Positions 13,888 to 42,721 of a stretch of 64,000 nt of DNA are shown here, piece after piece. Made by a program: the position numbers and the translations under genes. The notes under the pieces were generated by a model. It did not search any database. It was not told the origin of the DNA and was given only the letters and a program-made list of their open reading frames with translations. Each line of letters begins with the position of its first letter. Positions within the stretch are counted from its first letter, which is position 1. Source of the DNA: Serinicoccus kebangsaanensis (GTDB lineage: Bacteria > Actinomycetota > Actinomycetes > Actinomycetales > Dermatophilaceae); NCBI RefSeq assembly GCF_008919445.1, contig NZ_VSLG01000001.1, forward strand, positions 1 to 64,000. The letters run 5' to 3'.

Positions 13888-14749
13888 AGAGGGGTATGAC
13901 GGTGGCGCCCAGCAACCAGGTGAGGAGCTGCCACGCGATCACGCTCAGCGAGCCCCACCCGAGGAGACCGAGGAATCCGTAGCCGCCTCCCGAGCGCCGG
14001 TCGGCCGCCGGCGCGCGGTGGTCCCGCCACCCGCCGACCTCCCAGACGGCATACGCCAACGCCCCCAGTCCAGCGGGCAGGCCGATCAACCAGAACCAGA
14101 ACCACCGGTTGCCGTGCCGGGGAGCCGGTCCGAAGAGCACCAGGGCCAGCGTGCCGCCGGCCAGGACCAGCCCCAGCAGACCGTGTGCCCGCACCACGGG
14201 GCTCTGTGCGTGCACCGCGACGGTGGACGGCAGTCCGCTGGTCAGCAGGTCTTCCTGGATCCACTCGACCTCCGACTCCACCCAGGACCCCCAGCTGCTC
14301 ACGCTTGGGGCGATACGGTCCGGCACCACCAGGCGTGGGCGTGAGCCCTCGACGGTGTAGACCACGGAGGTCGAGCCGAGATGCAGCTCGTCCATCGGTG
14401 CCGGACTCAGACTCTGTCCCGTCCACCACCGGGTTGGCGACGAGCCCGCCAGACCGGGTCGCTGCTGCACGAGCGCCACGCTGCTCACCCTCCCGTGCGA
14501 CAGGTCGTCAGCTGCCCGGGTCAGGTTGACCATATGGAAGCCCCCCACCAGCGACAGCACCACGTGGGCCACCCAGAGAAGGGTGACGGCGACGGCACCG
14601 ACCGGGCGCATCCACCGTGCGGCGCCCGTGGCGCGACCACCAGGCAGCCTGCTGCCCCGTGATGTGCCGGGGGAAGACGCGCCGGAGGCATACCCCGATG
14701 CCTGCCCCTCGTCCCGCGCAACCGCGCGCGCGTCCCGCCCTCGACCCAT
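13886..14749 (-). CDS. Hypothetical membrane protein, about four membrane segments
   Basis: 287 residues, ATG at 14749. After a basic Gly/Arg/Ser-rich N-terminus (about 45 residues) there is a membrane segment (VGAVAVTLLWVAHVVLSLVG), a 110-residue probably external loop with Trp/Ser/Val-rich strands, and then three hydrophobic segments (GLLGLVLAGGTLALVLFG, FWFWLIGLPAGLGALAYAVW and a C-terminal SLSVIAWQLLTWLLGATVIP). No family was recognised. It stands alone on the minus strand between pyrG-nudix and aspS, and its codons are less extreme in G+C than its neighbours, which may indicate acquisition or weak expression. Confidence 0.75.
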   Translation of the reverse strand: MGRGRDARAVARDEGQASGYASGASSPGTSRGSRLPGGRATGAARWMRPVGAVAVTLLWVAHVVLSLVGGFHMVNLTRAADDLSHGRVSSVALVQQRPGLAGSSPTRWWTGQSLSPAPMDELHLGSTSVVYTVEGSRPRLVVPDRIAPSVSSWGSWVESEVEWIQEDLLTSGLPSTVAVHAQSPVVRAHGLLGLVLAGGTLALVLFGPAPRHGNRWFWFWLIGLPAGLGALAYAVWEVGGWRDHRAPAADRRSGGGYGFLGLLGWGSLSVIAWQLLTWLLGATVIPL

Positions 14750-14827
14750 GCCTCAGGATGGCACGGCGTCCTTCTACCAGCAGGTCGACGGCCCGCCTCC
14801 TGGTCCTGACCGCCGGTCACCGACCCG

Positions 14828-14833
14828 TAGACT
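14828..14833 (+). promoter_or_regulatory. -10 box of aspS
   Basis: TAGACT lies about 230 bases before the aspS ATG, so the mRNA would begin near 14840, just before the T-box structure. The rest of the gap between 14750 and the -10 box shows nothing else recognisable. Confidence 0.6.
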
Positions 14834-14843
14834 GGGCGCTGTT

Positions 14844-15003
14844 CCCGGGGCGGCGTGACGAGCCGCGGGTCCGGCGCGACGGCATACACCGGCCGCGCGG
14901 GACCACCCGAGGCACCGCGCGTCCGGCGTCACCGACGAGAGGCCGAGGAACCCCTCGGCAAAGGTGTGGTGGCACCGCGACCTGGCCCCCGCCCACACCT
15001 CCC
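14844..15003 (+). ncRNA. T-box leader of aspS with an ultrashort stem I (tRNA-Asp sensor)
   Basis: All parts of a T-box RNA can be drawn. Stem I is short: CCCG 14844-47 with CGGG 14866-69, a GGG bulge, then CGGC 14851-54 with GCCG 14862-65, closing a GTGACGA loop that holds the Asp codon GAC (14857-59). A stem II-like pairing is CGCGCGG 14894-900 with CCGCGCG 14915-21. Stem III is GCCGAGG 14942-48 with CCTCGGC 14953-59. The antiterminator-type helix pairs GGTGTGG 14963-69 with CCACACC 14993-99 and GCG 14977-79 with CGC 14990-92, leaving the canonical 7-base bulge TGGCACC (14970-76). TGGC is complementary to the GCCA end of tRNA-Asp. No terminator precedes the gene, and CACCTCCC (14996-15003) can partly pair with the GAGAGG ribosome binding site, so control is probably translational, as in actinobacterial ileS T-boxes. 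Confidence 0.88.
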
Positions 15004-15061
15004 GGGCTGCCTTCGCGTCAGGGCAGCGTCCCTGCGCGGACCGACCCGAGAGGAATCGCTC

Positions 15062-16879
15062 ATGCTGCGCACGCACGACGCCGGGGCCCTGCGCCCCGAG
15101 CACGTCGGATCGACCGTCACCCTCACCGGCTGGGTGGCCCGACGCCGCGACCACGGCGGTGTCGCCTTCATCGACCTCCGCGACGCCAGCGGCGTCGTGC
15201 AGGTCGTCGCCCGCGACGAGGTGCTCACCGGGACCGCCCACGACCTGCGCAGCGAGTACTGCGTCAAGGTGGTCGGCGAGGTGACCGCCCGCGCCGACAA
15301 GGACGTGAATCCCGAGCTGCCGACCGGCGGGATCGACGTCGTCGCCGCCGAGATCGAGGTGCTCAGCGAGGCGGCGCCGCTGCCGTTCCAGATCGACGAG
15401 CGGGTCAGCGTGGGCGAGGAGGCGCGGCTGCGGCACCGCTACCTGGACCTGCGCCGTCCCGGTGCCAGCTCGGCCGGCGCGAACCTGAGGCTGCGGTCCA
15501 AGGTCAACGCCGCGGCACGCAACCTGCTCGCCGAGCGTGACTTCGTCGAGGTCGAGACGCCCACCCTGACCCGCTCGACCCCGGAGGGCGCGCGCGACTT
15601 CCTCGTCCCGGCGCGGCTGCAGCCGGGCAGCTGGTATGCGCTCCCGCAGTCCCCGCAGCTGTTCAAGCAGCTGCTCATGGTCGCGGGGATGGAGCGCTAC
15701 TACCAGATCGCCCGGTGCTACCGGGACGAGGACTTCCGCGCCGACCGCCAGCCGGAGTTCACCCAGCTGGACATCGAGATGAGCTTCGTCGAGCAGGACG
15801 ACGTCATCGAGCTCGGCGAGGCGATCGCGGCGGCCGTGTGGCGCACCATCGGGGTCGAGCTGACCACGCCCTTCCCCCGGATGACCTACGCCGAGGCGAT
15901 GCGGCGCTACGGCAGCGACAAGCCGGACCTGCGCTTCGACCTCGAGCTCACCGAGTGCACCGACTTCTTCGCCGACACACCCTTCCGGGTGTTCCAGGCC
16001 GACTACGTCGGTGCCGTCGTGATGCCGGGCGGTGGCAGCCAGCCGCGACGCCAGTTCGACGCCTGGCAGGAGTGGGCCAAGCAGCGCGGGGCCAAGGGCC
16101 TGGCCTATGTCACCGTCGCGGAGGACGGCACCCTGGCCGGACCGGTCGCCAAGAACCTCTCGGACGCGGAGCGCGAGGGTCTGGCCGCCCACGTCGGGGC
16201 GCGGCCCGGTGACTGCGTCTTCTTCGCCGCCGGAGCCACCAAGCCGTCCCGGGCTCTCCTGGGCGCGGCGCGGCTGGAGATCGCCCGCCGGTGCGAGCTG
16301 GTCGACGAGGACGCCTGGAGCTTCCTGTGGATCGTCGACGCGCCGCTCTTCGAGCCGGCGTCCGAGGCGGTCGCGGCGGGAGACGTGGCCGTGGGTGCGG
16401 GAGCCTGGACCGCGGTGCACCACGCCTTCACCTCGCCCAAGGCCGAGTTCCTCGACAGCCTGGAGTCCGACCCGGGCGCCGTCCTCGCCTATGCCTACGA
16501 CCTGGTGTGCAACGGCAACGAGATCGGCGGTGGGTCGATCCGTATCCACCGACGGGACGTGCAGGAGCGGGTCTTCGGCGTCATGGGACTGTCCCCCGAG
16601 CAGGCGGAGGAGAAGTTCGGCTTCCTGCTCGAGGCGTTCAAGTTCGGAGCGCCGCCGCACGGCGGCATCGCCTTCGGATGGGACCGGATCGTCGCGCTCC
16701 TGGCCGGGACGGACTCCATCCGCGACGTCATCGCCTTCCCGAAGTCGGGTGGCGGGTTCGACCCGCTCACGGCAGCACCGGCCCCCATCACCGTCGAACA
16801 GCGCAAGGAGGCAGGCGTGGATGCCACGCCCGAGCCGGCGACGACCGAGGCGGTCGACGGGTCGGGGAGCCCGGCCTGA
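15062..16879 (+). CDS. aspS: Aspartyl-tRNA synthetase
   Basis: 605-residue class II synthetase of the bacterial type. The N-terminal OB-fold anticodon-binding domain ([20 protein letters not shown]) is followed by the catalytic core with motif 2 ([20 protein letters not shown]), the bacterial GAD insertion (about residues 300-410) and motif 3 ([15 protein letters not shown]). ATG at 15062 has GAGAGG nine bases upstream. Expression is likely governed by the T-box leader, which would raise AspRS when tRNA-Asp is uncharged. The frame is open further upstream, but the conserved N-terminus starts at this ATG. The next gene follows after one base. Confidence 0.97.
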
Positions 16880-41857: not shown

Positions 41858-42721
41858 GTGACCGAACAGCCGAAGAGCTCCTCCCGCCCCGTACCCGACC
41901 GGTTCGGGGTCAGGCTGGCCGAGGCGATCCGCTCGCGCGGACCGCTGTGCCTGGGCCTGGACCCGCACACCGGGCTGCTCGAGCTCTGGGGCCTGCCGGA
42001 CACCCCCGCGGGTGTCCGTGAGTTCTGCTCGCTCGCCCTCGAGGGCGCGGCGCCGACCTGCGCCGCGGTCAAGCCGCAGTCCGCGTTCTTCGAGCGGCAC
42101 GGGTCCGCCGGGGTGGCTGTGCTGGAGGAGGTCCTCGCCGCGTGCCGCGAGCGCGGCCTGCTCACGGTGCTCGACGTCAAACGGGGCGACATCGGCTCCA
42201 CCATGCTCGGGTATGCCGAGGCATACCTGGGCGACGGCTCGCCGCTCGCGGCGGACGCGCTGACGCTGAGCCCCTATCTCGGCTACGAGTCGCTGCGTCC
42301 GGCCCTCGACCTGGCCCGCCAGACCGGGCGGGGAGCCTTCGTGCTGACCCGCACGTCGAACCCCGAGGGCACCCAGGTGCAGGGGTGCGGCCGGCCGACC
42401 GTGGCGGAGCAGGTCATGCGGGAGGTGCACCGGGAGAGCGCCGGCCAGGAGCCGTGCGGCGACGTCGGGATGGTCCTCGGCGCCACGGTCGACCTGGTCG
42501 CCGAGGGCCTGCGCGTCGAGGACTCGCCGGCGCCGGTCCTGACCCCCGGGGTCGGTGCCCAGGGGGCGGACGAGCACGACGTCGCCCGGTCCTTCGGCGG
42601 GGCGCGGGGCCGGGTTCTGGTCCCGATCTCGCGCGGCATCCTCGGCGCCGGGGCGGACGCGGTCCCGGAGGCGGCTGCCCGGTGGGCCGAGCGGCTGGCC
42701 ACCGCCATGGGCTCCGACTGA
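41858..42721 (+). CDS. pyrF: Orotidine 5'-phosphate decarboxylase (type 2)
   Basis: 287 residues. The catalytic K-D-K-D region is VLDVKRGDIGSTMLGYAEAY, and other family segments are LCLGLDPHTGLL, AAVKPQSAFFE and LTPGVGAQG. This is the longer PyrF form found in mycobacteria and myxobacteria. It converts OMP to UMP, ending the operon. GTG at 41858, with AAGGATGG upstream. Confidence 0.96.
   Translation: MTEQPKSSSRPVPDRFGVRLAEAIRSRGPLCLGLDPHTGLLELWGLPDTPAGVREFCSLALEGAAPTCAAVKPQSAFFERHGSAGVAVLEEVLAACRERGLLTVLDVKRGDIGSTMLGYAEAYLGDGSPLAADALTLSPYLGYESLRPALDLARQTGRGAFVLTRTSNPEGTQVQGCGRPTVAEQVMREVHRESAGQEPCGDVGMVLGATVDLVAEGLRVEDSPAPVLTPGVGAQGADEHDVARSFGGARGRVLVPISRGILGAGADAVPEAAARWAERLATAMGSD

Follow-up and report, generated by a model that had tools for sequence, protein, structure and literature searches.

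A probable translational T-box riboswitch for tRNA-Asp upstream of aspS in Serinicoccus kebangsaanensis

The window, by which we mean the whole stretch of 64,000 nucleotides of Serinicoccus kebangsaanensis that was analysed, carries on its forward strand the gene aspS, preceded by a leader whose features are collected in Table 1. All the features which a preliminary description had named in this leader (a loop with GAC, a stem III and a helix with the bulge TGGCACC) are present in the sequence. The span given there, 14844..15003, is too tight: the RNA features begin at about 14841, with an outer helix P0 that the preliminary description lacked, and the expression platform extends to 15053. In the window leader P0 is imperfect, with one mismatch and one bulge. 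Words resembling TAGACT, the downstream element of our candidate promoter, are seen by eye just 5' of P0 in relatives as well, while a promoter scan returned no promoter for the aspS leader at the threshold of the tool. Stem III is flanked by AGAGG and (G/A)AA in the window leader and, as judged by eye, in most relatives, which fits the T-box motif in which RRRNG and AA flank this stem (PMC7778990).

Table 1. Features of aspS and its leader, in window coordinates
Feature	Position	Strand	Basis
Candidate promoter: CTGACC 14806-14811, 16-nt spacer, TAGACT 14828-14833	14806..14833	+	sequence inspection
P0 outer helix, 5' strand GTTCCCGGG	14841..14849	+	covariation, swap test
P1 (stem I) hairpin GCGGC-GTGACGA-GCCGC, 5 bp	14850..14866	+	sequence; swap test, pair count
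Specifier GAC (Asp codon) in the stem I apical loop GTGACGA	14857..14859	+	TGAC in relatives; tRNA-Asp anticodon GUC
Variable hairpin region P2, without S-turn motif	14867..14905	+	AGTA in 0/101 leaders
P0 outer helix, 3' strand CCCGAGGCAC	14906..14915	+	swap test, pair count
IIA/B-like pseudoknot: CGC 14916-14918/GCG 14926-14928; CGTC 14920-14923/GACG 14934-14937	14916..14937	+	pairing in 43 leaders
Stem III GCCGAGG/CCTCGGC	14942..14959	+	compensatory changes in 43 leaders
Antisequestrator: AGGTGTGG 14962-14969/CCACACCT 14993-15000; inner GCG 14977-14979/CGC 14990-14992	14962..15000	+	paired in 43/43 leaders
T-box bulge TGGCACC; TGGC 14970-14973 complements GCCA of tRNA-Asp	14970..14976	+	conservation; tRNA-Asp sequence
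Putative sequestrator, 5' strand CCTCCCGGG, sharing CCT with the antisequestrator	14998..15006	+	complementarity; swap test negative in the bacterial-aspS group
H2 hairpin of the expression platform	15012..15040	+	swap test
Putative sequestrator, 3' strand CCCGAGAGG, with Shine-Dalgarno GAGAGGA 15048-15054	15045..15053	+	8/9 positions pair with 14998-15006
aspS, bacterial-type aspartyl-tRNA synthetase (AspRS)	15062..16879	+	ATG 15062; NF001750 838 bits (cut-off 443), TIGR00459 691 bits (cut-off 374)

The bulge word GGTGGNACCGCG is common (13 copies in the genome, against 18 for its reversed control), the fold of the window leader is modestly stable when compared to shuffled sequences (z -1.84), and the GC-rich minimum free energy folds obtained from this single sequence do not show a T-box. 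The Rfam covariance search which the preliminary description had proposed gave no T-box match in the window, either at the gathering score or at E 10, and none in the genome. Hence the case rests on comparison. The preliminary description had also argued that an agreement of both specifier and discriminator with Asp is hard to obtain by chance; the agreement is there, but with so common a bulge word it is conservation which carries the case.

We searched 31 genomes of the genus, from which 30 aspS loci were retrieved. The bulge TGGNACC is found in 25 of these 30 leaders, and the five leaders lacking it belong to more distant members of the genus (AspRS 81-82% identical). The T-box core is present in 26/31 genomes, including one, G022, in which aspS runs off the contig (L065). 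The alignment of 25 genus leaders shows no variation in UGACG or in the F-box-like CGACGAGAG; in the antisequestrator helix a single position varies, from A to G, and a U-G pair is kept there.

We then counted 36 named pairs in 43 leaders of bacterial aspS genes (25 from the genus and 18 from the family's other genera; the leader of G022, being truncated, was excluded). The cells are paired in 96.0% of cases, against 91.1% in shuffled controls and 35-51% in slid controls, over which the structure is favoured as it was derived from the very sequences counted. Changes on both sides are found in 12/36 pairs, against 7.7 after shuffling (2/500 shuffles reach 12); the cells changed on both sides number 81 against 30.6, and the covariation is 0.188 against 0.098, neither value being reached in 500 shuffles. 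This means that covariation of the stems in related genomes, the lack of which the preliminary description had held to speak against its reading, does exist. The changes are concentrated in stem III, with compensatory changes in 5/7 pairs, and in P0, with both-side changes in 5/6 pairs and 86.8% of cells paired; stem I shows them in 1/5 pairs, IIA in 1/3 and IIB in 0/4. All three pairs of IIA are formed in 43/43 leaders and 93.6% of the IIB cells are paired, so that the pseudoknot covaries little because it is mostly invariant. In three leaders (L021, L023 and L025) hairpin-like inserts lie within the pseudoknot, between IIA and the F-box-like strand. The antisequestrator is fully paired in 43/43 leaders, without both-side changes in any of its 11 pairs, and the bulge is invariant. 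In a wider set, in which 144 leaders could be parsed out of 147 distinct ones, four versions of its outer helix are seen, each fully paired, in 102, 24 (with U-G), 14 (UA to AU) and 4 (UA to CG) leaders. Its apical loop, ACCTGGCCCC (14980-14989), is nearly invariant in the 43 leaders, although in T-boxes such a loop usually varies. From this comparison of sequences we concluded that the stretch 14841-15053 before aspS is very probably a T-box and that the original observation holds.

The genome gave 45 tRNA matches; among the 30 retrieved there is one tRNA-Asp gene, with anticodon GTC, discriminator G73 and no encoded CCA. Both contacts of the T-box fit this tRNA, the specifier GAC facing the anticodon GUC and the bulge UGGC facing the G73 end. 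As the tRNA-Asn of the genome also has G73, the bulge alone cannot separate the two tRNAs, while the specifier does. TGAC lies 5' of the core in 138/144 distinct leaders chosen by their antisequestrator core only, a count of presence and not of position, in which GGCG is equally frequent and to which some long-stem leaders contribute a TGAC located outside the specifier. Of all 5-mers, TGACG occurs in the most leaders (124/144). The six leaders without TGAC have a long stem I, five of them with AAGAC and one (L245) with GAAUCC; the gene downstream of the latter is presumably serS, as recognised from its N-terminus. The specifier thus agrees with the gene downstream, GAC before aspS and UCC before the serS-like gene. 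L245 itself (1500-1600) appears to be another non-Ile actinobacterial T-box, with a long stem I.

The part of the preliminary description which placed a T-box for tRNA-Asp, with GAC, UGGC and an ultrashort stem I, before aspS is strongly supported by the comparison: it has on its side the core in 26/31 genomes, TGAC in 138/144 leaders, an AspRS gene downstream at 79/80 loci (see below) and the covariation. We infer that the leader would bind tRNA-Asp and sense its charge.

The part of the leader which would read the anticodon is less ordinary. In a swap test over 98 leaders, the own strands of P0 score 6.84 against 5.50 for swapped strands (sd 0.13; the top of 60 swaps is 5.89), and for 29 distinct stems I the values are 4.17 against 3.50 (sd 0.12; top of 2000 swaps 3.93), in tests which ignore phylogeny. 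P0 rests on this test and on the pair count, as RNAalifold did not predict it. The counts for stem I are conditioned on TGAC because our P1 finder sought only hairpins holding it: 8/140 distinct leaders had no such hairpin, and 31 of the 132 others were dropped for want of a match to IIA or to the specifier context. In 101 leaders, stem I and IIA are 12-107 nt apart, with a median of 28, and AGTA, a part of the S-turn motif, is found between P1 and IIA in 0/101 by a test of the motif only. The apical loop of stem I has 7 nt in the window and, with the geometry applied to relatives, 9 nt. Given the pairing of P0 and stem I, the variable region which follows and the missing AGTA, the decoder looks like a junction, with P0 as the closing helix around stem I and a variable hairpin. 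Without an S-turn motif found, it differs from the textbook T-box of the ileS type (class III), and the claim that the leader has the same minimal design as ileS is not supported, P0 making a junction and the loop having 7-9 nt.

Part of the variable hairpin region contains, in 10/25 aspS leaders of the genus, an octamer, GGCATACC, which is abundant elsewhere. The window has 31 copies of it where 0.67 are expected (for instance at 14687 and 42210-42227). Genome-wide it is present 1764 times and its reversed control 10 times; eight further genomes of the genus have 518-2180 copies each, and three genomes from outside the genus have 14-71.

The switch may be pictured as follows. Within the junction closed by P0, the apical loop of the short stem I would offer the specifier to the GUC anticodon for pairing. 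With uncharged tRNA-Asp, the GCCA end would pair with UGGC of the bulge and stabilise the antisequestrator, which uses CCACACCU; with charged tRNA-Asp this helix would fail, and the CCUC thus freed would pair with GAGG of the Shine-Dalgarno sequence, extend the H2 hairpin and shut translation. Both the direction of the switch and the level at which it acts are read from the sequence here, and control at translation is the likely one. The CCU of the antisequestrator 3' strand begins CCUCCCGGG, which is complementary at 8/9 positions to the strand holding the Shine-Dalgarno sequence, and the stretch 14740-15120 has no terminator-like site. In 71 distinct leaders of archaeal-type aspS genes (see below), the own Shine-Dalgarno pairing scores 8.31 against 7.75 when swapped (sd 0.08; 0/200 swaps). 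In the 38 distinct leaders of the group to which the window belongs, that of bacterial aspS, it scores 5.18 against 5.47, with 200/200 swaps at or above the own value. H2 covaries in this latter group (7.61 against 5.85, 0/200, n=41), and being placed between the two sequestrator strands it would fit a scaffold keeping the anti-Shine-Dalgarno strand next to its target. Another hairpin of the platform, H1 (GGGCUGCC/GGCAGCC), was rejected, its swap test being negative (6.39 against 6.26, 18/200 swaps reaching the own value). Modelling of the window leader did not show a clean switch: the enforced sequestrator fold has -44.4 kcal/mol and the enforced canonical antisequestrator -40.1 kcal/mol, the free optimum (-44.5 kcal/mol) is an antisequestrator-like fold in which the UGG of the bulge is paired, and enforcing the antisequestrator leaves four of the six Shine-Dalgarno bases at least 95% paired. 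The unmasking of the ribosome binding site proposed in the preliminary description is therefore plausible, in view of the complementarity and of the lack of a terminator-like site, but the swaps in the bacterial-aspS group do not favour it.

A model of the RNA, R1, matches 71/186 genomes of the family, 22/396 of the order, 15/394 of the class and 3/396 of the phylum, the last three samples overlapping that of the family. Of the 71 family matches, 44 are followed by bacterial aspS and 26 by an archaeal-type AspRS gene; the last is a chance match (L098 in G097, 34 bits), which was discarded as it has no bulge. The archaeal type was identified by NCBIfam for one locus, L080 (533 bits to NF003483, aspartate--tRNA(Asn) ligase, cut-off 353), and elsewhere by identity to it, of 60-68% at 18 loci checked from the order and class samples and 67-100% at the 26 family loci. 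A scan of named genomes with the antisequestrator pattern gave 83 stretches; among the 80 listed, 79 precede an AspRS gene, with 23 loci of bacterial type, 56 of archaeal type and one contig end with the N-terminus of aspS. The record titles of such loci include Serinicoccus, Ornithinimicrobium, Flexivirga, Dermacoccus and Kytococcus, and also Microbacterium, Promicromonospora, Oerskovia and Nocardioides. The RNA is widespread in Actinomycetes. One locus (L166, QEUR01000287.1) comes from a record titled Acidobacteria bacterium; its aspS leader resembles that of Ornithinimicrobium and the record is probably mislabelled.

An archaeal-type AspRS gene is found in 26/186 family genomes (E 1e-80 or better), and in 26/26 of them the T-box precedes it by 14-149 nt on the same strand. 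The gene is found in 0/44 of the genomes whose T-box precedes bacterial aspS (hypergeometric P 4.9e-4, phylogeny being ignored). We searched 25 genomes with the AspRS of the window: 21 have the T-box on an archaeal-type gene, and a bacterial aspS (69-83% identical) is present as well in 21/21 of these, while the remaining 4/25, among them the genome of the window, have no archaeal-type gene. Both states occur within one genus, g14. The simplest reading of these sequences would be that the archaeal-type enzyme is a second AspRS under tRNA control, and that in the window genome the switch sits on the only AspRS. One genome (G298) has two copies of the T-box with archaeal-type aspS (L145 and L152).

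Rfam model RF00230 matched 2 of the 15 relatives tried, L081 with 47.2 bits (E 1.9e-7), the best of the 15, and L082 with 35.5 bits (E 1.9e-4), the gathering score of 93 not being reached. Both have a long stem I with AGUA, AGAGAG and GAA-GAC. The other 13, among which are ultrashort forms and three further leaders with a long stem I, were unmatched. The antisequestrator of L081 is identical to that of L051, a leader of bacterial aspS, and differs from that of the window at two loop positions. L081 and L082 are bridges between canonical T-boxes and the form of the window leader.

How else could these observations be explained? That the pattern arose by chance in a GC-rich leader could be suggested by the 13 copies of the bulge word and the modest folding score; set against conservation, covariation and association with AspRS genes, this has a practically negligible probability. 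Somewhat less negligible, while still very improbable, is that AspRS itself regulates its synthesis by binding a tRNA-like leader, no tRNA being the ligand. It would account for the AspRS gene downstream of nearly every listed locus; on the other hand, the same RNA lies before genes of two AspRS families which share 31-34% identity across some 300 residues, a version with a long stem I and UCC is found before a serS-like gene, and the UGGC bulge is explained by the tRNA. We considered, as unlikely, that the same T-box acts on transcription, by intrinsic or Rho-dependent attenuation, as most annotated T-boxes do (PMC7583486). The negative Shine-Dalgarno test in the bacterial-aspS group is in its favour; no terminator-like site was found, the anti-Shine-Dalgarno strand overlaps the antisequestrator, and the archaeal-type group shows better Shine-Dalgarno pairing than its swaps, which all speak for translation. 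On balance we regard the aspS leader, from its sequence and those of its relatives, as a translational T-box riboswitch for tRNA-Asp with good confidence.

The remaining alternative concerns the class. An ordinary class III T-box, similar to that of ileS, would share with our leaders the short stem I, the apical specifier, the IIA/B-like pseudoknot and the discriminator domain (PMC10482949), and its S-turn in stem II could be present in a degenerate form. This we also give a small chance only, since AGTA is found between P1 and IIA in none of the 101 leaders, this region can shrink to 12 nt, the loop has 7-9 and not 5-6 nt, and P0 encloses both stem I and P2. Our own more ambitious proposal is a tentative one, to which we give slightly less than an even chance: the RNA may form a distinct T-box class, with a junction decoder clamped by P0 and no S-turn, which would have moved between enzymes, driving in many Actinomycetes an archaeal-type AspRS as a second, inducible enzyme and, where this backup is missing, the housekeeping bacterial aspS, as in the window.

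In the papers cited here, the short T-box structures described are tRNA-Ile examples, in which the codon-anticodon pair is held by an S-turn in stem II. If a large group for tRNA-Asp, as it seems, lacks the S-turn and has a different helix closing the decoder, it would solve the same problem in a second way. An RNA placed on either of two non-orthologous AspRS genes, and never in both states within one of the 186 family genomes, would be a natural case of a regulator changing its gene. Annotation based on Rfam misses this widespread candidate regulator of an essential enzyme. What is of interest is the architecture of the decoder and the way the RNA is exchanged between two AspRS genes, rather than the existence of a T-box before aspS.

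Firmicute T-boxes before aspS are transcriptional and have a long stem I; they share with our leader their place before aspS or an aspS operon. The papers cited here mention only two cases, a T-box for histidine at hisS-aspS (PMC7927825) and, in C. acetobutylicum, a T-box at one of the aspS genes (PMC2494555). For Actinobacteria, T-boxes were reported in 12/19 genomes, 32 in all, with eighteen for Symbiobacterium, ileS being named (PMC2494555; see also PMC1262725 for T-boxes at ileS, and PMC10651847 and PMC9437257 for further T-box literature), and TBDB scanned the phylum with a class II model (PMC7778990). Among the literature matches listed, which consist of titles and abstract openings, no tRNA-Asp T-box is reported in Actinobacteria, which is weak evidence. 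When compared to the canonical form of RF00230, the leader shares the discriminator domain, as the matches of its relatives L081 and L082 indicate; unlike it, the window leader has no long stem I and is not matched by the model. The closest known systems are the class III T-boxes of ileS in Nocardia farcinica and Mycobacterium tuberculosis, where the specifier lies in an apical loop of 5 or 6 nt (PMC10482949). Our leader has in common with them its actinobacterial host, a short stem I devoid of the distal motif for the tRNA elbow (IDTM), the specifier in the apical loop, the IIA/B pseudoknot, stem III, the UGGN bulge and possibly the sequestration of the Shine-Dalgarno sequence. It differs from them in that no S-turn motif was found and the loop is larger, in the P0 helix around stem I and the variable hairpin, and in its match to tRNA-Asp instead of tRNA-Ile.
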